Assembly: GCF_001463705.1 (NCBI RefSeq)
Contig: NZ_BBWH01000024.1
Location: 1 to 64,000, forward strand
Direction of reading: 5' to 3'
Length of the DNA: 64,000 nt
Origin: Aureimonas sp. AU12
GTDB lineage: Bacteria; Pseudomonadota; Alphaproteobacteria; Rhizobiales; Rhizobiaceae
Part shown: positions 3,596-59,144 of the stretch, in pieces
Layout of the letters: the number at the start of each line of letters is the position of its first letter
Numbering within the stretch: the first letter of the stretch is position 1
Notes under the pieces: generated by a model
What the model saw: only the letters and a program-made list of their open reading frames with translations
What the model was told of the DNA's origin: nothing
Database searches by the model: none
Translations under genes and position numbers: made by a program

Positions 3596-4639
3596 TCAAC
3601 CGCGGTTTCCAGCGGGATCGGTGGACCATGCTCCCGGCGGCTTGGTGCTGGCGGTCGAGACCTGGGCGCGGCGCATCGCGGTGACGATTTCGCGCGGTTC
3701 GTGTTCACCGATCAGGCGGGTCAGGCGGGTCGCCGTCCAGAGCGAAGCGACGAAGAAAGCCGCGCCGCCCGCGAGATCGAGGAGGTGATGGCCTCCGTGC
3801 AGCAGGATCGCCGGAAGCATCGCGGCATTGAGGAGAAGCAGCGGCCAGCGCAGCCAGCGGATCGGCCAGGCGAATCGGACGCAGATGCAGGCGAGCACCG
3901 TGTGGAACGAGGGAAAGCCGATGAGGCCCGTCATCGTCTCCGGCGAGATGACTTCGGGGCCGAGGGTCACGAGGCGCAGCAGCGCGGCGCCTTCTCGGCC
4001 GTCGACGACGAGAGCGGCGGCGCGTTGGGCGGTCTCCGGCAGGGACAGGAAGGGGGCGACCCCGATCGAGGGAAAGAGGCCCCAGAACGCCACGGTGGCC
4101 AGACCCGAGACGACGATCGTCGCGACCATTAGGTCCGCCACCGCGAAACGCCGCGTCACGGCGAGAGCCAGGAGCACGGCGAGAATCTGGAGGAGCGTCG
4201 AGCGATAGACGGACCCGAGTGCCGACGAGAGAAGCGGGTGGGACGCGGCCCAGTCCACGAAGGCGGTCCAGTCGTAGCCGAGCGCCGCGTTGGTCGACAG
4301 GAGCCAGGGATCGATGAGCGGAACCGCCACCGGGAGCAGCAGATAGTTGTAGGTCGACAGGACCAGCGAGAACGCCAGCAACAGTCCGGCGGCCATGGTG
4401 AAGGACGCCAGGAACTCGTCCCGCCGCCACCAGCGGGCAATGGCGCCGGTCGTCAGGAAGAGCACCACCGGCAAGGCCTTGCCGCCGTAGGAGGGCAAGT
4501 CGACCGGCGCCTGATGAACCACCGCCATGGCGGCCGACAGCGCGCTCGTCGCGAGGATGGCGACGGCCGCCAGGCACTCGCCGGGGCGCAGGAAGATGTG
4601 GGAGAGCGTCATCGCGACACTCTCGGGCCACAGGCTCAA
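3596..4639 (-). CDS. PAP2-superfamily integral membrane protein
   Basis: A 347-residue polytopic membrane protein with hydrophobic segments along most of its length. Near the C-terminal third it has SFHTVLA followed about 40 residues later by GGHHLLDLAGG. These correspond to the SxxHxxxA and SRxxxxxHxxxD-type blocks of the PAP2_3/inositolphosphotransferase-like branch of PAP2 enzymes, although the Arg of the third motif is not present. Such proteins hydrolyse or transfer lipid-linked phosphate. The substrate cannot be read from sequence. The start could be 4639 or the internal ATG at 4612. It is divergent from glcD across a 149-base gap. Confidence 0.7.
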   Translation of the reverse strand: MSLWPESVAMTLSHIFLRPGECLAAVAILATSALSAAMAVVHQAPVDLPSYGGKALPVVLFLTTGAIARWWRRDEFLASFTMAAGLLLAFSLVLSTYNYLLLPVAVPLIDPWLLSTNAALGYDWTAFVDWAASHPLLSSALGSVYRSTLLQILAVLLALAVTRRFAVADLMVATIVVSGLATVAFWGLFPSIGVAPFLSLPETAQRAAALVVDGREGAALLRLVTLGPEVISPETMTGLIGFPSFHTVLACICVRFAWPIRWLRWPLLLLNAAMLPAILLHGGHHLLDLAGGAAFFVASLWTATRLTRLIGEHEPREIVTAMRRAQVSTASTKPPGAWSTDPAGNRG

Positions 4640-4788
4640 TTTACCGTAAAGCCGCGGATCGATCGCGCCGCGTCGACGTCGGCCTCCCGATCGATCTCCT
4701 CGCAGGCAGGGCGTCTCGCCCGGCGATGCTTTCCATCGCCCGCCGGCTCGCGCTAGACTGATTCCAAGAACAAGAACGGGAGGCGGCC

Positions 4789-6282
4789 ATGGGCATTTCG
4801 ATGCCGAAGCCCAGTCGGGAGATTCTCGGTCGAAGGGCCGCGATCGTCGCGGCGCTGCGCGCGATCGTGCCGGGCGAGGGTGTGGTCGACGCGGTCAACG
4901 AGATGCGCGTCTTCGAGACCGATGCGCTGACGGCCTATCGCCAGCTGCCGCTCGTCGTGGTGCTGCCCGAGACGGTGCCGCAGGTCGCCGCGATCCTGCG
5001 CTACTGCCACGAGCACCGGGTGCCCGTGGTGCCGCGGGGGTCGGGCACCTCGCTGTCGGGCGGCTCGCTGCCGCTGGAGGACGGTGTCCTCCTCGTCCTC
5101 TCGCGCTTCAACCGCATTCTCGACGTCGATTTCGACAATCGCTGCGCCGTGGTGCAGCCGGGCGTCACCAATCTCGGCATCACCCGCGCCGTGGAACATG
5201 CCGGCTTCTACTATGCGCCCGATCCTTCCTCGCAGATCGCCTGCTCGATCGGCGGCAACATCGCCGAGAATTCCGGCGGCGTGCACTGCCTGAAATACGG
5301 CCTCACGACGAACAACGTTCTCGGCATCGAGTTCGTGACGATCGAGGGCGAGGTCATCCGCCTCGGCGGCAAGCATCTGGACGCGGAGGGCTACGACCTC
5401 CTCGGCCTGATGACGGGCTCCGAAGGGCTGCTCGGCGTCGTCACCGAGGTCACCGTGCGCATCCTCCAGGCCCCCGAGACGGCGCGCGCCGTGCTCATCG
5501 GCTTCCCGACCTCCGAACAGGCCGGCGAATGCGTCGCCGCGATCATCGCCAAGGGCATCATCCCCGGCGGCATGGAGATGATGGATCGGCCGGCGATCCA
5601 CGCGGCGGAGGCCTTCGTCCATGCCGGCTATCCGCTGGATGTCGAGGCGCTGCTCATCGTCGAGCTCGACGGGCCCAAAGCGGAGGTCGACCACCTCCTC
5701 TCCGAGGTCGAGGCCATCGCCACCGCCAACGGTGCCACCACGGCGCGCGTCTCGCAGTCGAACGAGGAGCGCATGTCCTTCTGGGCCGGGCGCAAGGCGG
5801 CGTTTCCGGCGGTCGGGCGCATCTCGCCGGACTATCTCTGCATGGACGGCACCATCCCGCGCAAGGAACTGCCGCGGGTGCTCGCCGGCATGAAGGCCCT
5901 GTCGGAAAAATACGGTCTCGGCGTCGCCAACGTCTTCCATGCCGGAGACGGCAACCTGCATCCGCTCATCCTCTACGACGCCTCGAAGGACGACGAGCTG
6001 CAGCGCGCCGAAGATTTCGGCGCCGACATTCTGCGGCTTTGCGTCGCCGTCGGCGGCGTGCTGACGGGCGAGCATGGCGTCGGCATCGAGAAGCGCGACC
6101 TGATGCCGGAAATGTTCTCCGAGGACGACCTGAAGCACCAGATCCGGGTCAAATGCGCCTTCGACGACCGGCATCTTCTCAACCCCGGCAAGGTCTTTCC
6201 GATGCTGCACCGCTGCGCCGAACTCGGCAAGCTGCATGTCCACCAAGGCAAGCTTCCCTTCCCCGAACTGCCGCGGTTCTGA
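4789..6282 (+). CDS. glcD: Glycolate oxidase subunit GlcD (FAD-linked)
   Basis: The catalytic FAD subunit of the three-part glycolate dehydrogenase GlcDEF, which oxidises glycolate to glyoxylate and feeds electrons to the respiratory chain. The 497-residue protein has an FAD_binding_4 domain with the PP-loop VPRGSGTSLSGG (about residues 81-92) and a FAD-oxidase C domain with FHAGDGNLHPLI (about 383-394) and TGEHGVGIEK (about 425-434). The start ATG is preceded by GGGAGG at the right distance. Its TGA overlaps the glcE ATG, so the two are probably translationally coupled. An IlvD-like or D-lactate role is less likely because glcE and glcF follow. Confidence 0.95.
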   Translation: MGISMPKPSREILGRRAAIVAALRAIVPGEGVVDAVNEMRVFETDALTAYRQLPLVVVLPETVPQVAAILRYCHEHRVPVVPRGSGTSLSGGSLPLEDGVLLVLSRFNRILDVDFDNRCAVVQPGVTNLGITRAVEHAGFYYAPDPSSQIACSIGGNIAENSGGVHCLKYGLTTNNVLGIEFVTIEGEVIRLGGKHLDAEGYDLLGLMTGSEGLLGVVTEVTVRILQAPETARAVLIGFPTSEQAGECVAAIIAKGIIPGGMEMMDRPAIHAAEAFVHAGYPLDVEALLIVELDGPKAEVDHLLSEVEAIATANGATTARVSQSNEERMSFWAGRKAAFPAVGRISPDYLCMDGTIPRKELPRVLAGMKALSEKYGLGVANVFHAGDGNLHPLILYDASKDDELQRAEDFGADILRLCVAVGGVLTGEHGVGIEKRDLMPEMFSEDDLKHQIRVKCAFDDRHLLNPGKVFPMLHRCAELGKLHVHQGKLPFPELPRF

Positions 6283-7514
6283 TGTCCGTTTCTCCCCTGC
6301 TCGCGCTCACCGACGCGGTGATGACCCCCGATACGCCGGAGGCCCTGCGCGCCATCGTCGCCGAGGCGGTCGCCACCGGCGAACCCCTGGCTGTCGAGGG
6401 ATCCGGCTCGAAGCGCGGCCTCGGCCGACCCGTGCAGGCGGCGCGCACCCTGTCGACAGCCGCGATGACCGGCGTCAACTTCTACGAGCCGGAGGAACTG
6501 GTGCTTTCGGCAAGGGCGGGCACGCCGATCGCCGAGATCGAAGCGTTGCTCGCGGCGCGCGGCCAGCGGCTCGACTTCGAGCCGATGGATTACGGGCCGT
6601 TGCACGGCCTGCCGGCGGGCCTCGGCACCATCGGCGGGGTGCTCTCCTGCAACCTTTCGGGCCCGCGCCGGCTGAAGCAGGGCGCGGCGCGAGACCATGT
6701 GCTGGGCCTCGCCGCCGTCTCGGGGCGGGCCGAGATCTTCAAAACCGGCGGGCGCGTGGTGAAGAACGTCACCGGCTACGACCTGTCGAAGGGACTGACC
6801 GGCGCCTACGGCACGCTCGCCGTCCTGACCGACGTCATCGTCAAGACCATGCCGCGCTCCGAGCGCGAGACGACGCTGGTGCTGCGCGGTCTCGACGACG
6901 CGGCCGCGGCCGGCGCGATGGCGGCGGCGATGGGCTCCTCGGCCGAGGTTTCGGGCGCGGCGCATCTGCCCTATGGCGTCGCGGCCCGGGTTGCCGAAGG
7001 CGCGCTCGGGCGCGAGGCGGCGACCGCGGTTCGCATCGACGGCTTCGGCCCCTCGGTCGAGGCACGCGCCGCTCATCTCGGCGGGGCGCTCGGCCGGGTC
7101 GCGCCGCTGGAGCGTCTGGAGGACGAGGCTTCCGCTGCATTGTGGCGCGACATTCGCGATGTTCGCCCCTTCGCGGACGGAACGGATCGTGCGGTCTGGC
7201 GCGTCTCGGTGGCGCCGACGCGGGGCCACGAGCTGGTCATGGCTTTGCGCATGCAGGCGGCGACCGATGCCTTCTACGACTGGCAGGGCGGCCTCGTCTG
7301 GCTGCGCATGGAAGGCGACCCCGAGGCCGACCTCGTCCGACGCCTCGTCGCCGCGCATGGCGGCGGCCACGCGACGCTGGTGCGCGCCGATCTCGCCACC
7401 CGCGCCGCGGTGTCGGTCTTCCACCCGCAGGCCCCGGCGCTCGCCGCGCTGGCCCGCCGCCTGAAGGACCAGTTCGACCCCAAGGGCATCCTCAACCCCG
7501 GGCGGATGGGATAG
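6282..7514 (+). CDS. glcE: Glycolate oxidase subunit GlcE (FAD-binding)
   Basis: A 410-residue FAD_binding_4 protein, shorter than GlcD. It is the second flavin-type subunit of glycolate dehydrogenase. I took the ATG at 6282, which shares its A with the glcD stop codon. Visible features are VEGSGSKRGLGRP near residue 40, LGTIGGVLSCNLSGPRR near residues 108-125, and GGRVVKNVTGYDLSKG, all typical of GlcE. The C-terminus ends with KGILNPGRMG, the family's common tail. The next gene downstream is not glcF but a small DUF433 gene starting 28 bases later. Confidence 0.94.
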   Translation: MSVSPLLALTDAVMTPDTPEALRAIVAEAVATGEPLAVEGSGSKRGLGRPVQAARTLSTAAMTGVNFYEPEELVLSARAGTPIAEIEALLAARGQRLDFEPMDYGPLHGLPAGLGTIGGVLSCNLSGPRRLKQGAARDHVLGLAAVSGRAEIFKTGGRVVKNVTGYDLSKGLTGAYGTLAVLTDVIVKTMPRSERETTLVLRGLDDAAAAGAMAAAMGSSAEVSGAAHLPYGVAARVAEGALGREAATAVRIDGFGPSVEARAAHLGGALGRVAPLERLEDEASAALWRDIRDVRPFADGTDRAVWRVSVAPTRGHELVMALRMQAATDAFYDWQGGLVWLRMEGDPEADLVRRLVAAHGGGHATLVRADLATRAAVSVFHPQAPALAALARRLKDQFDPKGILNPGRMG

Positions 7515-7542
7515 GATGACGTCTTTCCATGGAGGCAGTCCG

Positions 7543-7764
7543 ATGAGCATGAGCGAGGACGAACTCTTCGATCAGAACCCCGACGTCGTCAGCGGCGCGC
7601 TGGTGTTTCGCGGCACGCGCGTTCCCGTCGACGCCTTGTTCGAAAATCTCGCAGGGGGATCGTCCCTGGACGAGATCCTGGAAAACTTTCCCTCGATCGG
7701 ACGGGAGAGGGCGGAGGCCGCGATCCTGCTCGCGCGCCGCGGGTTGCGGTTGAAGGCTGCGTGA
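7543..7764 (+). CDS. DUF433 family protein, probable antitoxin
   Basis: A 73-residue protein starting at the ATG at 7543, which has GGAGG seven bases upstream; an upstream in-frame ATG at 7516 lacks such a site. Residues around SGALVFRGTRVPVDAL and LDEILENFPSIGRERAEAAI match the DUF433 family, small winged-helix-like proteins usually encoded beside a PIN-like DUF5615 protein and thought to be antitoxins. The stop codon overlaps the GTG start of the next gene (GTGA), as expected for a coupled toxin-antitoxin pair. The placement between glcE and glcF is odd. Function is inferred from family and context. Confidence 0.75.
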   Translation: MSMSEDELFDQNPDVVSGALVFRGTRVPVDALFENLAGGSSLDEILENFPSIGRERAEAAILLARRGLRLKAA

Positions 7765-8129
7765 CCCGAGCAATCCTCGATGAAGGCGTGCCGCGGATGC
7801 TGGCCGGTCTCCTGTCGAACCACGGCTCGGACGCCTCGCCTTTTCCGAACGAGTGGAAGCGGCTTTCGGATCGTGATGTGATCGCCGCGGCCGACATGAC
7901 CGGCTTCGACGTTCCGATCACCTGCGATCGAAACATGCCGTTCCCGTGTGCGCTTCGAGATCGACGGATCGCCGTTCTCGTTCTGCCCTTTTCCAGGCTG
8001 GACGCGGTGCTGGGCAGCGTCGAAGCGATCTCTTCCCGCCTGCTTGCGCTGGAGGCGGGGCGCTATGCCTTGCTCGGCCGTGAGGGAAGTCTTCCTCTGC
8101 ATCCACGCAAGCCTCTCGAAGGATCGTAA
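7761..8129 (+). CDS. DUF5615/PIN-like protein, probable toxin partner
   Basis: A 122-residue protein starting at GTG (7761), overlapping the upstream gene by four bases. The start AILDEGVPRMLAGLL and the later DVPITCDRNM match the two acidic motifs (LDE near residue 7 and TxDxxF-like near residue 55) of DUF5615, a PIN-like nuclease fold associated with DUF433. The second motif reads TCDRNM, so the usual phenylalanine is replaced. The C-terminal half (SRLDAVLGSVEAISSRLLALEAGRYALL) is helical. Its stop lies only 9 bases before glcF, so it is probably transcribed with the glycolate oxidase genes. RNase activity is untested and inferred. Confidence 0.65.
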   Translation: MTRAILDEGVPRMLAGLLSNHGSDASPFPNEWKRLSDRDVIAAADMTGFDVPITCDRNMPFPCALRDRRIAVLVLPFSRLDAVLGSVEAISSRLLALEAGRYALLGREGSLPLHPRKPLEGS

Positions 8130-8138
8130 GGACGTTTC

Positions 8139-9476
8139 ATGCAGACCGCCTTCAGCCCCGCCGCCCTTGCGAATGCCGACACGGCGCACACCGAGGGGAT
8201 CATCCGCAAATGCGTGCATTGCGGCTTCTGCACGGCGACTTGCCCGACCTACGTGACGCTCGGCAACGAGCTCGATAGTCCGCGGGGGCGGATCTATCTC
8301 GTCAAGGACATGCTGGAGAACGACCGGCCGGCCGACGAGAAGGTGGTCAAGCACATCGACCGCTGCCTCTCGTGCCTCGCCTGCATGACGACGTGCCCCT
8401 CTGGCGTCAATTACATGCACCTCGTCGACCACGCCCGCGCCCATATCGAGAAGACCTACAGGCGCCCTTTCGCCGACCGGATGATCCGCCAGGTCCTGGC
8501 GATGACGCTGCCCTATCCCGCGCGCTTCCGGGCCAGCCTCGTGCTGGCCAAGCTCGCGCGGCCCTTCGCCGGACTGCTGGCCGGCGTGGCGCCGCTGAAG
8601 CCCCTGGCCGCGATGCTGAAGCTGGCGCCCTTGAGCGTGCCGGCGCGCTCCACGATCGACGAACCGGCGGTGCATCCGGCCGCCGGGACGGCGCGCGGCC
8701 GCGTAGCGCTGCTGCGCGGCTGCGCCCAGTCGGTGCTCGACCCCGGCATCAACGAGGCCACCGTTCGGCTGCTGACGCGGCTCGGCGTCGAGGTCGTGGT
8801 GCCGGAAGGGGAGGGGTGCTGCGGGGCGCTGACCCACCATATGGGCCGCGAGGCTGAGGCGCTCGATTTCGCGCGGACCAATGTCGATGTCTGGACGCGG
8901 GCCGCCGAGAAGGGCGGGCTGGACGCCATCGTGATCACCGCGTCGGGCTGCGGCACGACGATCAAGGATTACGGCCACATGCTGCGGCTCGACCCCGCCT
9001 ATGCCGAGAAGGCGGCGCGGGTGTCCGCGCTGGCCAGGGACGTCACCGAGTTCCTCGCCGGCCTCGACCTGCCGCTGCCGGCGCATCCGGTGGATGCCGT
9101 GGTCGCCTATCACTCCGCCTGCTCGATGCAGCACGGGCAGAAGATCACGAAGGCGCCGAAGGTGCTGCTGGCGCAGGCCGGCTTCACGGTGCGCGACGTG
9201 CCCGAGGGGCACCTCTGCTGCGGCTCGGCGGGCACCTACAACATCCTGCAGCCCGAGATCTCCGCGCAGCTCCGCGATCGCAAGGTCAAGAACATTGAGA
9301 GCGTGGCGCCCGAGATCATCGCCACCGGCAATATCGGCTGCATGACGCAGATCGGCTCGGCGACGGGCATCCCCGTGGTCCACACGGTGGAACTTCTCGA
9401 CTGGGCCTTCGGCGGGAAGAAACCGGCGAAACTGGCGAACTTCGAGGCGCGCGCCCTGCCCGTGGCCGCCGAGTAG
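8139..9476 (+). CDS. glcF: Glycolate oxidase iron-sulfur subunit GlcF
   Basis: A 445-residue protein carrying two 4Fe-4S clusters that pass electrons from the GlcD/GlcE flavins towards the quinone pool. The first motif has Cys25, 28, 31 and 35 (CVHCGFCTATCP). The second has Cys76, 79, 82 and 86 (CLSCLACMTTCP). Two CCG domains follow (CCGALTHH and CCGSAGTY). The gene is separated from glcE by the DUF433/DUF5615 pair but keeps a very short 9-base spacing to it. A strong hairpin with a T run follows at 9496-9524. Confidence 0.95.
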   Translation: MQTAFSPAALANADTAHTEGIIRKCVHCGFCTATCPTYVTLGNELDSPRGRIYLVKDMLENDRPADEKVVKHIDRCLSCLACMTTCPSGVNYMHLVDHARAHIEKTYRRPFADRMIRQVLAMTLPYPARFRASLVLAKLARPFAGLLAGVAPLKPLAAMLKLAPLSVPARSTIDEPAVHPAAGTARGRVALLRGCAQSVLDPGINEATVRLLTRLGVEVVVPEGEGCCGALTHHMGREAEALDFARTNVDVWTRAAEKGGLDAIVITASGCGTTIKDYGHMLRLDPAYAEKAARVSALARDVTEFLAGLDLPLPAHPVDAVVAYHSACSMQHGQKITKAPKVLLAQAGFTVRDVPEGHLCCGSAGTYNILQPEISAQLRDRKVKNIESVAPEIIATGNIGCMTQIGSATGIPVVHTVELLDWAFGGKKPAKLANFEARALPVAAE

Positions 9477-47376: not shown

Positions 47377-49455
47377 CTAGTGCGCCGCCTCCACGGCCAC
47401 CTCCCGCACCACGAAGACGGCACGCGGCGTCACCGTCAGCGACGATGTCGGATCGAGCGGGCGGGGGGCGAGGTCCGGGCGGTCGGACTGGAGTTCGAGG
47501 CGATAGGCGAGACCCGCGCCGAGCGGCGGCAGCCGGACGGTGCGCGCCTGCCGGTCGGCGTTGAGATAGACGAGGACGGCAGGGGCGGGGCGGGCCTCGC
47601 CCCGATCACACGGCGTCTCGCTCGGTCCGCCCGCAAGGCGTGCCGCCAGCCAGCGCCGCTCGCCGTCCCGCCAGTCGCGCTCGTGCATCGGCCCGCCGTC
47701 CTCGCCGAGCCAGACGACGTCCGGGGTGCCTCCGCAATCGGCGCCGTTGAGGAAGCGGTCGGCGTGGAGCGCCGGTTCGGCCGCGCGCAGCGCCACGAGG
47801 CGCGCGGTGAAGTCGCAGAGGTCCTCGTCGGCGCCGGCCCAGTCGAGCCACAGCACCTCGTTGTCCTGCGCATACCCGTTGTTGTTGCCGCCTTGCGTTC
47901 GACCCATCTCGTCGCCCGCGACGATCATCGGCGTGCCGCGCGCCACCATCAGCGTCGCCAAGAGCGCCCGCACGTCGCGCCGGCGCGCCTCGATGATCGA
48001 AGGATCGCTCGTCGCGCCCTCGGTGCCGTTGTTCCAGGAATGGTTGTCGGCATGGCCGTCGCGGTTGTTCTCGCCATTGGCCTCGTTGTGGCGCTCGGCA
48101 TAGGCGACAAGATCGGCGAGCGAGAACCCGTCATGGGCGTCGATGAAATTGACGCCATCGTTCGGGGTGCGACCCTCGCCTGCGAAGAGATCGGGCGAGC
48201 CGGAGAGGCGCGTCGCGAGCGCGCCGACCATTCCGGCATCGCCGCGCCAGAAGCGGCGCACGTCGTCGCGGAACCGATCCTGCCATTCGAGGAAGGGGCG
48301 CGGGAAGCGCCCGACCTGATAGCCGCCCGGCCCGATGTCCCACGGCTCGGCGACGTGGAGGCGGCCCGCCAGCACCGGGTCGGCTGCCAGCATCCGGAAG
48401 AACGGGGCATCCGGTCGGAACCCTTCGGGCGTGCGGCCGAGAATGGGGGCGAGATCGTAGCGAAAGCCGTCGATGCCGGCGCGCGTCACCCAGGTGCGCA
48501 GCGCGTCCACCGCCATCTGCGCCACCGGCTCGCGCCAGAGCGCGAACGTGTTGCCGGTGCCGGTGTCGTTGACGAGCGTGTCGGGATCACCGGGCGCGGC
48601 GGCGTAATAGGTGCGGTTGTCGAGCCCGCGATAGGCGATCGTCGGGCCGAACCGGTCGCTCTCGCCGGAATGGTTGAGCACGACGTCGAGGAGGACGCGG
48701 ATGCCGCGCGCGTGCAGCGCTTCGACGGTCCGGCGGATCTCGGCCCAGCCGCCGGGCGAGAGGCGCGGGTCGGGCGCCATGTGCGTGATGGGATTGTAGC
48801 CCCAGGCGTTCGTCAGCCCGAGCGCCGAGAGATGTCGCTCGTCGAGGGCGGCAGCGAGCGGCATCAGTTCCACCGTCTCGACGCCGAGGCGCGTCAGGTG
48901 TTCGAGGACGGCCGGCTCGGCGAGCGCGGCGACGGTGCCGCGCAGGCGCTCTGGCACGAGCAGATGGCGCTGCGTGAAGGCGCGCACCAGAAGCTCGTAG
49001 GTGAAGCCCGGTCGGCGGAAGGGCAGGGGCTCGGCCGGACCCTCGGCTCCTTCCACCACGGCGCGCGGCACGAGCGGCGCGGTGTCGATGGCGCGAGACG
49101 GCGGTGCGGCGAGCGTCGGATGATAGAGGAAGGGCCGGTCGATCCGCGTCGCGTAGGGGTCGACCAGCAGTTTCGAGGCATCGAAGCGATGGCCGTTCGC
49201 GGGATTGAAGGGTCCGTGCGCGCGGTAGCCGTAGAGCGCGCCGACGCGAAGGCCCGGGACGAAGCCGAAGTGAACGCCCCCGTCGCCGCGCCGGGGCAGC
49301 GTCAGGCGCTGCGCTTCGACCGTGCCGGCTGCTTCGAAGAGGCAGAGCTCGATGCGCTCGGCATGGTCGGAGAAGACGGCGAACTGCACGCCATCGGCCT
49401 CCGGCGTCGCGCCGAGCGTTGCGGGGCGGCCGCGTTCCGCCGTGATCGTCTGCAT
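47377..49455 (-). CDS. glgX: Glycogen debranching enzyme GlgX (GH13)
   Basis: Hydrolyses alpha-1,6 branches of phosphorylase-limit glycogen. The 692-residue protein starts at 49455 and has an N-terminal carbohydrate-binding-like domain (VQFAVFSDHAERIELCLF) and a GH13 barrel. Visible parts are the four conserved regions: DVVLNHSGES, GFRYDLAP (nucleophile Asp), HVAEPWDIG (acid/base Glu) and FIDAHDGFSL (transition-state Asp). It lies at the downstream end of the glg cluster, separated from pgm by the DUF2585 gene. A GGGCGC/GCGCCC hairpin (47344-47359) lies after the stop. Confidence 0.93.
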   Translation of the reverse strand: MQTITAERGRPATLGATPEADGVQFAVFSDHAERIELCLFEAAGTVEAQRLTLPRRGDGGVHFGFVPGLRVGALYGYRAHGPFNPANGHRFDASKLLVDPYATRIDRPFLYHPTLAAPPSRAIDTAPLVPRAVVEGAEGPAEPLPFRRPGFTYELLVRAFTQRHLLVPERLRGTVAALAEPAVLEHLTRLGVETVELMPLAAALDERHLSALGLTNAWGYNPITHMAPDPRLSPGGWAEIRRTVEALHARGIRVLLDVVLNHSGESDRFGPTIAYRGLDNRTYYAAAPGDPDTLVNDTGTGNTFALWREPVAQMAVDALRTWVTRAGIDGFRYDLAPILGRTPEGFRPDAPFFRMLAADPVLAGRLHVAEPWDIGPGGYQVGRFPRPFLEWQDRFRDDVRRFWRGDAGMVGALATRLSGSPDLFAGEGRTPNDGVNFIDAHDGFSLADLVAYAERHNEANGENNRDGHADNHSWNNGTEGATSDPSIIEARRRDVRALLATLMVARGTPMIVAGDEMGRTQGGNNNGYAQDNEVLWLDWAGADEDLCDFTARLVALRAAEPALHADRFLNGADCGGTPDVVWLGEDGGPMHERDWRDGERRWLAARLAGGPSETPCDRGEARPAPAVLVYLNADRQARTVRLPPLGAGLAYRLELQSDRPDLAPRPLDPTSSLTVTPRAVFVVREVAVEAAH

Positions 49456-49578
49456 CGCCGCTTCCCTTCGAGCATTTCCGGACGAATCGGACACGCTTGG
49501 CCATACGTCAATGCGGATCAACAAAGACCTGAAGGGCCCGTCCGCCGAACCGGTGTTCGCGGACCCGTGCCCCAGCCT

Positions 49579-50160
49579 TTAGAGGCCGCCCTGCCAGGCG
49601 CGGACGGCATCGAGCGGATAGAGAAGCATGAGAACGTTGAGCGTCAGGTTATCGCGGATGAGAACGGCCGTCAGAATTTCGAGGCCGAGCGCCACCGCGA
49701 CGCTGACGAAGACCGGGAGGCGCGAGGCGAACGCGAAGCCCACCATCATGAACGCCACGTCGGACACCGAGTTGAGAACGCTGTCGCCGAAATAATCGAG
49801 CGCGATCGTCGCCTCGCGGTAGCGCTGGATCACCGCGTCCGTGTTTTCCGTCAGCTCCCAGATGGCCTCGATCAGCACCGCACCCACGAGACGCAGCCCC
49901 ATCGGATGGCGGCGCGCCAGCCACCAGAAGCCGGCGTAGAAGAGCAGCCCGTGGATGAAATGAGAGGGCGAATACCAGTCCGAGAGATGTTGCGAGTTTT
50001 CCGAACTCGCCACCGTGCCGTGCCACAGCTTGATCGTGCCGCAGGCGCAGATCGGCACCCGCCCCATGGCAAGCAGGATCGCCGCCATGACGGCGACGAT
50101 CGCGGCGCAGAGGACGAGATGCCAGAGTTTGACCCGGCGGTCGGTGCCGCCGGGCGACAC
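49579..50160 (-). CDS. DUF2585/UPF0314 membrane protein
   Basis: A 193-residue membrane protein starting with GTG at 50160 (after GGGAG). The first hydrophobic segment is LVLCAAIVAVMAAILLAMG; it then has ICACGTIKLWHG, a conserved SPSHFIHGLLFYAGFWWLA, and a LTENTDAVIQRYREATIALDYFGDSVLNSVSD block characteristic of DUF2585. Function is unknown. It lies between pgm and glgX in the glycogen cluster, 20 bases after pgm, so it is probably co-transcribed. A role linked to the cell envelope or to glycogen is a guess. Confidence 0.8.
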   Translation of the reverse strand: MSPGGTDRRVKLWHLVLCAAIVAVMAAILLAMGRVPICACGTIKLWHGTVASSENSQHLSDWYSPSHFIHGLLFYAGFWWLARRHPMGLRLVGAVLIEAIWELTENTDAVIQRYREATIALDYFGDSVLNSVSDVAFMMVGFAFASRLPVFVSVAVALGLEILTAVLIRDNLTLNVLMLLYPLDAVRAWQGGL

Positions 50161-50180: not shown

Positions 50181-53252
<3,072 letters not shown>

Positions 53253-53256
<4 letters not shown>

Positions 53257-54521
53257 CTATAGTTCAGCCGGTCGATCATCGGTTTCGTCACGAGGCAGAT
53301 GCCGCTCGCCGTGCGGCGGAAGCGCTGCGCGTCGAGATCGGGATCCTCGCCGATGACCAGTCCGTCGGGGATATGGACACCGCGGTCGAGCACCGCCTTC
53401 GTCACACGCGCCCCGCGTCCGATATGGCAGCCCGGCAGCACCACCGCGTGGTCGAGCTTCGAATAGGAGTTCTGCCGCACGCCGGTGAAGAGCAGCGAGC
53501 GATGCAGCGAGCCGCCGGAAATGATGCAGTCGCCCGAGACGAGCGAGGAGATCGCCGTGCCGCGGCGCCCCTCCTCGTCATGCACGAACTTCGCCGGCGG
53601 CGTCACGTCGGCATAGGTCCAGATCGGCCAGTCGCGGTCGTAGATGTCGAGCTGCGGCTGGATGTCGGTCAGGTCGATATTGGCCTGCCAATAGGCGTCC
53701 ACCGTGCCGACGTCGCGCCAGTAGGCGCCGTATTCGGCGGATGAGCGCACCACCGACGTGTTGAACGAATGCGACCAGGCCGTGCCGTGTCGCACGATGT
53801 GCGGCACGATGTCCTTGCCGAAGTCTCGGCTCGACATCGGATCGGCGGCGTCGCGGCGCAGTTGATCGGCGAGGAATTCGGTGTTGAAGACGTAGATGCC
53901 CATCGAGGCCAGCGCCGTGTCGGGACGGCCGGGGATCGACGGTGGGTCGGCCGGCTTCTCGATGAAGTCGGTGATGCGCCCCTTCTCGTCGACATGCATC
54001 ACGCCAAAGCCGACGGCCTCCATGCGCGGGACCTCGAGGCAGCCAACGGTGACGTCGGCCCCCGTGTCGACATGCTGCTGGAGCATGATCTCGTAGTCCA
54101 TCTTGTAGACGTGGTCGCCTGCCAGGATGACGATGTACTTCGGGGCGTAGGACTCGATGATGTCGATGTTCTGGTACACCGCGTCGGCCGTGCCCGCATA
54201 CCACTGGTCTTCCGAGACGCGCTGCGAGGCGGGAAGAACGTCGAAGCTCTCGTTCCGTCCTGGGCGCAGGAAGTTCCAGCCGCGATGCAGGTGGCGGATC
54301 AGCGAATGCGCCTTGTATTGCGTGGCGACGCCGATGCGGCGGATGCCCGAGTTCACCGCGTTCGACAGGGCGAAGTCGATGATGCGCGACTTGCCGCCGA
54401 AATAGACGGCGGGCTTGGCCCTGTCGTCGGTCAATTCCATCAGGCGGCTGCCGCGGCCGCCCGCCAGAACATAGGCCATCGTATCGCGCGAGATCGGCGC
54501 CACTCGGCGGCTGTCAGCCAT
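53253..54521 (-). CDS. glgC: Glucose-1-phosphate adenylyltransferase
   Basis: Makes ADP-glucose from ATP and glucose-1-phosphate, the committed step of glycogen synthesis. The 422-residue protein starts at 54521, after a good GGAGGAACGA. The nucleotide-binding motif is [21 protein letters not shown] (near residues 19-39), and the product-binding block is [21 protein letters not shown]. The beta-helix C-terminal domain carries allosteric control; alphaproteobacterial GlgC enzymes are typically activated by fructose-6-P and pyruvate. Upstream there is a 190-base gap to glgP, with no glgB. Confidence 0.95.
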
Positions 54522-54602
54522 TCGTCGTTCCTCCACGATACGCAACGCGGTCCGGTCTTGGCCCGTAAGCGCGGCCGGACGCTTCTTGTCGCAAGTCTTA
54601 TC

Positions 54603-54632
54603 ACTCCGGCACCATCAAGATAGCGCCGGAGT
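54603..54632. other. Inverted repeat in the glgP-glgC gap
   Basis: A perfect 8-bp inverted repeat ACTCCGGC (54603-54610) and GCCGGAGT (54625-54632) with a 14-base loop, located 81 bases upstream of the glgC ATG. It has no T run, so it is not a clear terminator; it could be an operator or processing site. Confidence 0.4.
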
Positions 54633-54711
54633 TTCCCGCTTCCACGACGCGAACCCGCCGCCCACAGGCTTTTTTTCTCGCCAGACGTGTCGTGCGTCCG
54701 GCGGGGCTTTC

Positions 54712-57210
<2,499 letters not shown>

Positions 57211-57215
57211 GGAGA

Positions 57216-58868
57216 TCAGGTCCTTAGGTCAGCGATGGCGGCGACGAGGCCGGCGGTGGAGGAATCACGGGAGGCGGCGGACTCGCGGCCCTGCACGACC
57301 GGCAGGAGCCCGGTGGCCAGTTCCTTGCCGAGTTCGACGCCCCATTGGTCGAAGGCGTTGATACCGAAGAGCTGGGCCTCGACGAAGACGCGGTGCTCGT
57401 AGAGCGCCACGAGGCGGCCGAACGCGAACGGGTCGAGCAGGCGATGGAGGATGGTGATCGAGGGGCGGTCGCCCGAGAACTCGCGATGTGGCGCGATGCG
57501 CTCGGCTTCGTCGGGTGAGCGGCCCGCGTCGAGGAGCTGCTGGCGCGCCTCTTCGAGCGTGCGGCCCTTCATCAGCGCCTCGCTCTGCGCGAGGCAGTTG
57601 GCGAGAAGCAGGTCCTGATGGACGCGCATCTGCGACCCCGCCTCGTGCGCATTGGCGCCGACGATGAACTCGACGGGGATGATGTCGGTGCCCTGGTGCA
57701 GCAGCTGGAAGAAGGCGTGCTGCCCGTTCGTGCCTGGTTCGCCCCAGACCACCGGACCGGTGATGGCGACGCGGCGGCCGTCGAGGCCGACATGCTTGCC
57801 GTTCGATTCCATGTCGAGCTGCTGGAGGTAGGCCGGCAGGCGGGACAGGCGCTGGTCGTAGGGAATTACGGCGCGGGTGGGATGACCCTGCGCGACGCGG
57901 TGCCACCAGCCGACGAGACCGAGCAGCATCGGCAGGTTGGCCGCGATCGGCGCGTCCTTGAAATGGCGGTCCATGTCGCGCGCGCCGGCCAGGAACTCGC
58001 GAAAACGCTCCGGCCCGATCGCCAGCATCAGCGGCAGGCCGATCGCCGACCAGACGGAATAGCGCCCGCCGACCCAGTCCCAGAAGCCGAAGGTGCGATC
58101 TTCGCCGATACCGAAGGCGCCGACCTTGTCGAGTGCGGTGGAGACGGCGCAGAAATGCGCGCCGACGGCGGCTTCGCCGAGCGCGTCGGCGACGAAGCGG
58201 CGCGCGGTGCCAGCGTTCGTCATCGTCTCGATCGTGGTGAAGGTCTTCGAGGCGACGATGAAGAGCGTGGTGGCCGGTGATACGAGTTTCAGCGTGTCCG
58301 CCATATGCGCGCCGTCGACATTCGACACGAAATGGGTGCGCGGGCCATCGTGATAGGGCGCCAGCGCCAGCGCCGCCATCACCGGTCCGAGGTCGGAGCC
58401 GCCGATGCCGATATTGACGATGTCGGTAATGCGCTCGCCGGTCGCGCCGGTGATGGTGCCGCCGCGAATGCCGTCGGCAAAGCGCGACATGGCCACGAGC
58501 ACCCGCTCGACATCCGCTCCCACGGCCTCGCCATCAGCGGTGAAGCCGTCCTCGGGCCGGCCGCGCAGCGCGACGTGGAGGACCGCACGTCCTTCGGTGG
58601 CGTTGATGCGGGCGCCCGCGAACATCGCGTCGCGCCGGGCCTCGACGCCCATCTTGCCCCCGAAGGCAATGAGCGCCGCGAGATCGTCGCGCGAGAGTGC
58701 GGTCTTCGAGAAGTCGAGGAGAAGATCGTCGTGATGCACGGAAAGCGCGTCGAAGCGACTCTTGTCCTCGGCGAACAGAGCGCGGATGCCGCGCTCCAGC
58801 GCGGCCTTGCCGCGGGCCGTCATGTCGTCGAGGCCGAGATCGTTCGAAACGGGTCTGTTCTCTTGCAC
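57216..58868 (-). CDS. pgi: Glucose-6-phosphate isomerase
   Basis: Interconverts glucose-6-P and fructose-6-P. Starting from a GTG at 58868 ([12 protein letters not shown]) the protein has 550 residues, normal for Pgi; the frame stays open upstream but looks non-coding. Signatures are [43 protein letters not shown] and [21 protein letters not shown], which contains a catalytic Glu and His. The C-terminus has [12 protein letters not shown]. It is the first gene of the pgi-glgP-glgC-glgA-pgm run. Confidence 0.96.
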
Positions 58869-58933
58869 GCGTCTTGATCCATCGCTCTGGAGCCGTTGCC
58901 GTCTGGCAGTCGGCTGGTCGCATCGGCGGTTAG

Positions 58934-58961
58934 AGATAGAACCATTTGGTGCAAAGCCAAA
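58934..58961 (-). promoter_or_regulatory. Putative pgi promoter
   Basis: On the minus strand TTTGGC (58956-58961) and CTATCT (58934-58939) are 16 bases apart, in an AT-richer stretch, with the -10 box about 65 bases upstream of the GTG at 58868. The match is weak to moderate. Confidence 0.3.
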
Positions 58962-59144
58962 CAATTCCGGTGGCGCGCGGCCCGGCGGCCCCGGATCGAG
59001 GCCGCATAGGCATTCCCCTGCACCGCGGTATCCCCTCCGAACGCCCGCGTCTGCGCTCAGCCTTAGCACCCCGATCGTTTCAATTTTATCATCACGCCGC
59101 CGTTATGTGCGGCATGGCAAGCCGCCGGTCGACGGCGGTCAAAC

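Follow-up and report, generated by a model that had tools for sequence, protein, structure and literature searches.

How does a cell branch its glycogen when the operon that encodes glycogen synthesis contains no branching enzyme? The question is raised by the window analyzed here, a 64,000-nucleotide stretch from Aureimonas sp. AU12 whose minus strand carries pgi, glgP, glgC, glgA, pgm, a gene for a DUF2585 protein, and glgX, in that order. The order is the same as in the alphaproteobacterial glgP-glgB-glgC-glgA-pgm operon, but there the branching enzyme gene, glgB, has its place between glgP and glgC (hereafter, the slot). The glucose-6-phosphate isomerase gene, pgi (open reading frame at 57216-59069; NF001211, 730 bits), has its true start inside the reading frame, the match running from residue 87, and is followed by glgP for glycogen phosphorylase (54712-57210; TIGR02093, 1134 bits). 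The ADP-glucose pyrophosphorylase gene, glgC (53253-54521; TIGR02091, 497 bits), opens with an ATG at 54521 that has GGAGG upstream. Glycogen synthase, encoded by glgA (51814-53256), is of the GT5 type (TIGR02095, 526 bits, cut-off 328), and a profile search with the actinobacterial type, TIGR02149, gave only 44 bits (cut-off 302). The phosphoglucomutase gene, pgm, spans about 50181-51809, its start placed according to a profile match that runs from residue 43 of the open reading frame at 50181-51935 (NF005737, 929 bits). The DUF2585 gene (49579-50160; PF10755, 266 bits) and the glycogen debranching enzyme gene, glgX (47377-49524; TIGR02100, 783 bits), complete the run.

Exactly 190 bases (54522-54711, minus strand) separate glgP from glgC at the place where most relatives hold glgB, as an earlier note on this DNA had observed. 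A tblastn search of this gap with seven GlgB proteins found no glgB remnant (best E value, 0.50). The genome is a draft of 4.67 Mb in 92 contigs (99.4% complete), and in such a draft a gene might have fallen out of the gap during assembly. We consider an artefact of this kind vanishingly improbable, since the gap lies inside a 215 kb contig (C24) and nine other aurantimonad-like genomes, Fulvimarina included, share the arrangement.

One full-length GH13 GlgB of 777 amino acids is encoded in the genome, on a different contig from the window (G000:C40:1393-3726). It scored above the curated cut-offs of NF003811 (1012 bits over residues 135-752; cut-off, 741) and TIGR01515 (936 bits; cut-off, 464), and its domains PF22019 (GlgB_N), PF02922 (CBM48), PF00128 (GH13 barrel), and PF02806 (C-terminal beta domain) were all over cut-off. 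In an alignment with the solved branching enzyme 1m7x (830 bits), LRVDAVASM at 432, AEEST at 487, and LSHDEV at 553, which we take to be the motifs of the GlgB catalytic triad, were intact. PF02806 had its single match in the whole genome in this protein, and four other genome matches to the GlgB protein were weak and partial (best, 81 bits). The GH13 family PF00128 gave 11 matches from eight genes, the other seven of which are not GlgB by best NCBIfam or Pfam match; one of these seven, on contig C23, was closest to the BglA/alpha-glucosidase type, just below the cut-off of that model. A second glgB may lie inside an assembly gap of the 92-contig draft.

The earlier note had entertained a cell that lacks branching and makes linear glucan. 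The operon without glgB would fit this, as would the result for GH57 branching enzymes, for which PF03065 had no match in the genome (9 of 14 control genomes were positive). The full GH13 GlgB on C40, its motifs intact, contradicts it at the gene level, and we give a linear product essentially no credence. The same note's other suggestion, that another enzyme does the branching, was in essence what we found, and of the three things that it proposed to look for across the genome, a GH13 enzyme and a GlgE-TreS route are present and a GH57 enzyme was not matched. The absence of glgB from the window's operon is real but local.

The GlgE pathway leads from trehalose through maltose-1-phosphate to alpha-glucan. 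On C40, glgE (7076-9190), a treS-maltokinase fusion (3663-7130), and, last, glgB run on the same strand (L013), and by gene content this is a predicted GlgE (maltose-1-phosphate) operon. The fusion protein matched both TIGR02456 and TIGR02457 above cut-off. GlgE had no match in NCBIfam at E values up to 1e-30, and its naming follows its Pfam (PF11896, 170 bits; PF21702, 57 bits) and PDB (solved GlgE 5vsj, 576 bits) matches. Aligned to 5vsj, it has RVDNPHTKP, AEAFTRP, and NTPDI, presumably the GlgE catalytic motifs. The treZ-malQ-treY genes are on contig C39. A complete glgB housed with evident partners (glgE - treS/maltokinase - glgB) is an outcome that the earlier note had itself named as refuting its case for missing branching.

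We examined how widespread this arrangement is in a sample of 61 genomes of the same family, including that of the window, each from another genus and none of the others from the window's genus. Full-length GlgB was present in 40 of them, a count that leaves out the weak, partial matches in G018, G034, and G039 (raw tally, 43). Thirty-nine genomes encoded glgC and 17 encoded GlgE. The slot was filled, with glgB beside glgP before glgC, in 28 of the 39 glgC genomes, counting G043, in which the run is interrupted by a contig end. It was empty in 10 (G000, G020, G022, G023, G027, G036, G037, G041, G042, and G052), and every one of these had one full GlgB, located within about 5 kb of GlgE.

GlgE also occurred in 5 of the 28 slot-filled genomes. 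Four of them (G009, G029, G032, and G047) had a second, GlgE-linked GlgB. G002 is the mirror image of the window: it has GlgE without an adjoining GlgB and retains glgB in the glgP-glgC slot. In its GlgE operon (L171), the 184 bases between treS and glgX held no glgB remnant at E values up to 0.01. Two further genomes, G024 and G049, had GlgE with GlgB and no glgC. Across the 41 family genomes with glgC or GlgE, either GlgB gene may thus be absent, and both were absent only in the doubtful G001; the other 20 genomes lacked glgC, GlgE, and full GlgB alike. G001, which we placed outside both the 28 and the 10, is the only family genome that had glgC and glgP and no GlgB match. Its GlgC and GlgP were 55% and 45% identical, the stretch that encodes them (C253, L176) has a G+C content of 43%, and the genome has 85% completeness and 5% contamination; the glgP-glgC stretch is probably on a contig of foreign origin.

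A scan of species genomes provided a second view, from the best 80 of at least 594 GlgC loci, which are the top of a list and not a random sample. Among these 80, glgB immediately preceded glgC in 61, from Rhizobium, Mesorhizobium, Devosia, and other taxa, and glgP adjoined glgC without an intact glgB in six: Fulvimarina (L077), Sphingomonas desiccabilis (L097), two Acidiphilium loci (L138 and L139), a metagenome-assembled genome (MAG; L144), and an acetobacterial MAG (L123). The remaining 13, seven of them from Bradyrhizobium or Microvirga, had neither glgP nor glgB before glgC; one of them, L141, starts inside glgC, and its slot is not visible. The record names of two loci do not seem to fit their gene content. 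L144, recorded as Brevibacterium sp. RM44_bin.014, has a glg operon that resembles the operons of Rhodobacteraceae loci, and it falls with G058 in the GlgC tree. L111, recorded as Rubrivivax, encodes a GlgC that shares 74% identity with that of the window.

Whole genomes were searched for 19 of the named loci, namely, all six with an empty slot, 10 of the 13 without glgP or glgB (all but L129, L132, and L141), and three slot-filled controls. GlgB was found in all 19 and GlgE in 12. Each of the six slot-empty genomes had one GlgB, which in five lay beside GlgE; in the sixth, an Acidiphilium MAG (G063), it lay beside glgX, and no GlgE was matched. Six of the 10 genomes without glgP or glgB before glgC had GlgB beside GlgE, and the other four (G071, G073, G075, and G076) had GlgB and no GlgE match, with further glucan genes (for instance, glgX, treY, malQ, or glgP) adjoining it in G071, G073, and G075. 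Linkage to GlgE is therefore not the sole alternative home of glgB, as G063 and these four genomes illustrate. The Devosia control had both kinds of GlgB.

Fulvimarina (Aurantimonadaceae) is the nearest named genome among the best 80 loci, with a GlgC 84% identical to that of the window, and it groups with the window genome and eight family members in both the GlgB and GlgC trees; from this we infer that the host is aurantimonad-like. The slot gene was lacking from every one of the 10 aurantimonad-like genomes in our sample (G000, G020, G022, G023, G027, G037, G041, G042, G052, and Fulvimarina L077), which comes close to the other refuting outcome named in the earlier note, universal absence of glgB among close relatives without a glycogen phenotype. 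In the nine besides the window's, the gaps measured 183 to 611 bases between tblastn matches. A search for glgB remnants in 17 glgP-glgC gaps, the window's and 16 others including the 611-base gap of G022, gave a clear result in L123 only; the best match elsewhere (E value of 0.018 over 11 residues) was taken as chance. Because the aurantimonad-like gaps contain no remnant, the choice between loss of the slot gene and its never having been present rests on the wider distribution.

Phylogeny bears on whether the slot gene was lost, moved, or replaced. A GlgB tree was built from 72 of the 141 loci with a match, many of the 141 being repeats or cut (quick IQ-TREE run, LG+G4, unrooted). A branch with SH-aLRT support of 97 placed 39 slot enzymes on one side and 28 GlgE-linked enzymes plus five others on the opposite side, and the GlgB of the window genome fell into one group with the GlgE-linked enzymes of nine other aurantimonad-like genomes (99). 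The earlier note had allowed that glgB moved, and the presence of the genome's one GlgB in the GlgE operon might suggest that it was relocated from the slot. The tree speaks against this, as it separates all 28 GlgE-linked GlgBs from the group formed by the 39 slot enzymes, and so does the coexistence of both kinds in four family genomes (G009, G029, G032, and G047). Relocation is accordingly a very unlikely account: the two kinds are separate, a simple move of the slot gene does not explain them, and the GlgB at work is one of separate ancestry.

The GlgC tree, also quick and with a simple model, contained 44 sequences, 35 from the 39 family glgC genomes (all but G001, G015, G043, and G045) and nine from the 19 named genomes. 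On it, the slot state requires five changes, three of which are forced by starred branches. GlgE-linked GlgB was found in 15 of 16 slot-empty rows versus 5 of 28 slot-filled rows of this set; the latter five are G009, G029, G032, G047, and Devosia, whereas the five slot-filled genomes with GlgE in the family sample include G002 and not Devosia. A sign test on independent pairs for an empty slot versus a GlgE-linked GlgB was not significant (median P value of 0.25). There are too few independent changes of the slot, and the association is thus consistent but not statistically proven.

A slot copy in the course of being lost might look like the one in L123, from the Acetobacteraceae MAG bin.6. 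At L123:6173-7000, N- and C-terminal parts of a slot glgB are present in different frames and the catalytic barrel is missing, and the genome retains an intact GlgB beside GlgE. This is one MAG only. Twelve of 29 other genomes of its family had weak, partial DNA matches to the remnant, with identities of 65 to 71% in the longer pieces and of as much as 93% in the short ones.

From these gene contents and trees, we conclude that the single GlgB of the GlgE operon on C40 is very probably the branching enzyme of the cell. The lineage retains a single GlgB, in the separate GlgE operon, and this would be why the GlgC-GlgA operon of the window does without a brancher. Under the most likely scheme, GlgA would lengthen linear alpha-1,4 chains from ADP-glucose; TreS would convert trehalose to maltose, which maltokinase would convert to maltose-1-phosphate; GlgE would lengthen chains from maltose-1-phosphate; and one GlgB would branch both the GlgA-made and the GlgE-made chains. 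We infer that, in this organism, GlgA-made glucan receives its branches from the C40 GlgB. Each of the two operons probably had a GlgB lineage of its own in the ancestors, the slot member of which would have been dropped as redundant; loss, as opposed to original absence, is the reading that we favor.

A different division of labor can be drawn from the same gene inventory, the difference being which chains GlgB meets. The glucan made by GlgC and GlgA might be largely linear and short, drained by TreY and TreZ to trehalose, and rebuilt in branched form by GlgE and GlgB; a brancher in the operon itself would then be unnecessary. The treZ-malQ-treY genes are at hand for this, and in Pseudomonas aeruginosa, according to the available part of one report (PMC8084333), GlgA-made glucan is quickly turned into trehalose and accumulates only if that conversion is blocked. 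Against it, glgA here is grouped with glgC, glgP, pgm, and glgX in a storage-type operon and not with treZ-malQ-treY as in P. aeruginosa, and no sequence feature that we saw bars GlgB from GlgA chains. We regard such cycling as unlikely, though worth keeping in mind. We also speculate, with still less confidence, that branching in aurantimonads could be conditional on the trehalose/GlgE operon and that the slot brancher was lost for this reason; GlgA glucan would then be linear and cycled via trehalose until the GlgE operon is on, and branching and accumulation would be under stress control and not under glgCA control.

A shared branching enzyme housed in a GlgE operon, as we propose for the window genome, is an arrangement of a kind already known. 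The available text of PMC8084333 describes a P. aeruginosa GlgB that is encoded with glgE and treS/pep2 and branches both GlgA- and GlgE-made chains, and the GlgE operon described there resembles the one found here in encoding GlgB with glgE and treS/maltokinase. The same source places P. aeruginosa apart in that it is without glgC and has glgA clustered with treZ, malQ, treY, and glgX, whereas here glgA is in a glgP-glgC-glgA-pgm-glgX operon. For Chlamydiae (Waddliaceae, Criblamydiaceae, and Parachlamydiaceae), the accessible portion of PMC7935935 reports a GlgB and a GlgE-operon GlgB2, one per pathway, that are differentially retained; the GlgC pathway is reported there as broken where GlgB2 is kept, but here both pathways look complete. 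Mycobacteria, as far as the available text of PMC4981310 goes, have one GlgB that branches glucan from two feeding routes. Both of those routes converge on maltose-1-phosphate, one of them via GlgA, whereas GlgA here is by profile the polymerizing GT5 type. A look for rhizobia or shared enzymes in the available part of the review PMC11046441 yielded nothing on a shared brancher, and titles and abstracts yielded no alphaproteobacterial description of a shared or replaced GlgB, which is weak evidence. A clear alphaproteobacterial case of replacement may be undescribed, a matter of modest interest.

These results indicate that the absence of a step from one operon is not safe evidence of its absence from the cell when another operon encodes a second glucan pathway. 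The alphaproteobacteria include genomes with the slot gene only, with both copies, with the GlgE-linked gene only, and, in one case, with a slot copy in decay, a series along which one can follow how a branching enzyme is replaced by another of separate ancestry. We predict that, in these bacteria, control of the GlgE operon determines glycogen branching.

The gap itself contains an inverted repeat at 54603-54632, which the earlier note had pointed out. The repeat exists, with perfect 8-base arms (54603-54610 and 54625-54632; 8 of 8 pairs, or 86% over 14-base arms), but it is barely above chance, since an 8-base arm also arose in 25 of 500 mononucleotide shuffles of the window gap. No matching repeat was seen by eye at the same place in an alignment of the relatives' gaps. 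We rejected the idea that the repeat is a scar of glgB excision, because it is near chance and has no such counterpart. Longer inverted repeats, with perfect arms of 10 to 12 bases, occurred in six of the eight other aurantimonad-like gaps of ≤301 bases (G020, G023, G037, G042, G052, and Fulvimarina L077), and at most 1 of 100 shuffles reached such arms; G027 and G041 lacked them, and G022 was left out of this comparison. These longer repeats may be terminators behind glgP.

The window's inverted repeat overlaps a CTATCT hexamer (54618-54623) that lies 96 nt from the start of glgC. Scanning 80 to 120 nt upstream of glgC, we matched this hexamer at five or six of its six places in 8 of the 10 aurantimonad-like gaps and at four in G022 and G023. 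The summed score over the 10 gaps was 52, versus a shuffled mean of 35.8, and none of 2,000 shuffles was as high, a figure that is optimistic because the motif was picked after the gap alignment had been viewed. An exact TTGAC stood upstream in G020, G023, G027, and Fulvimarina. A two-element score of our own (TTGAC and then CTATCT) exceeded the shuffles in 7 of 11 gaps, including the window's (≤6% of shuffles as high), and was no better than chance in those of G022, G036, G037, and G052. A standard scan of the window gap for a sigma-70 promoter or terminator found none. It is nonetheless plausible that the gap carries a glgC-glgA promoter, with the inverted repeat overlapping its putative -10 region.

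The distal end of the operon has two minor features of its own. The position of DUF2585 between pgm and glgX looks unusual, as no DUF2585 match of ≥80 bits was found in the 80 named loci (L077 to L156), many of which extend past pgm. A second glgX is present on contig C23 (L015:7057-9333) and scored 1038 bits against TIGR02100, versus 783 for the operon copy; the two glgX copies may differ in role.
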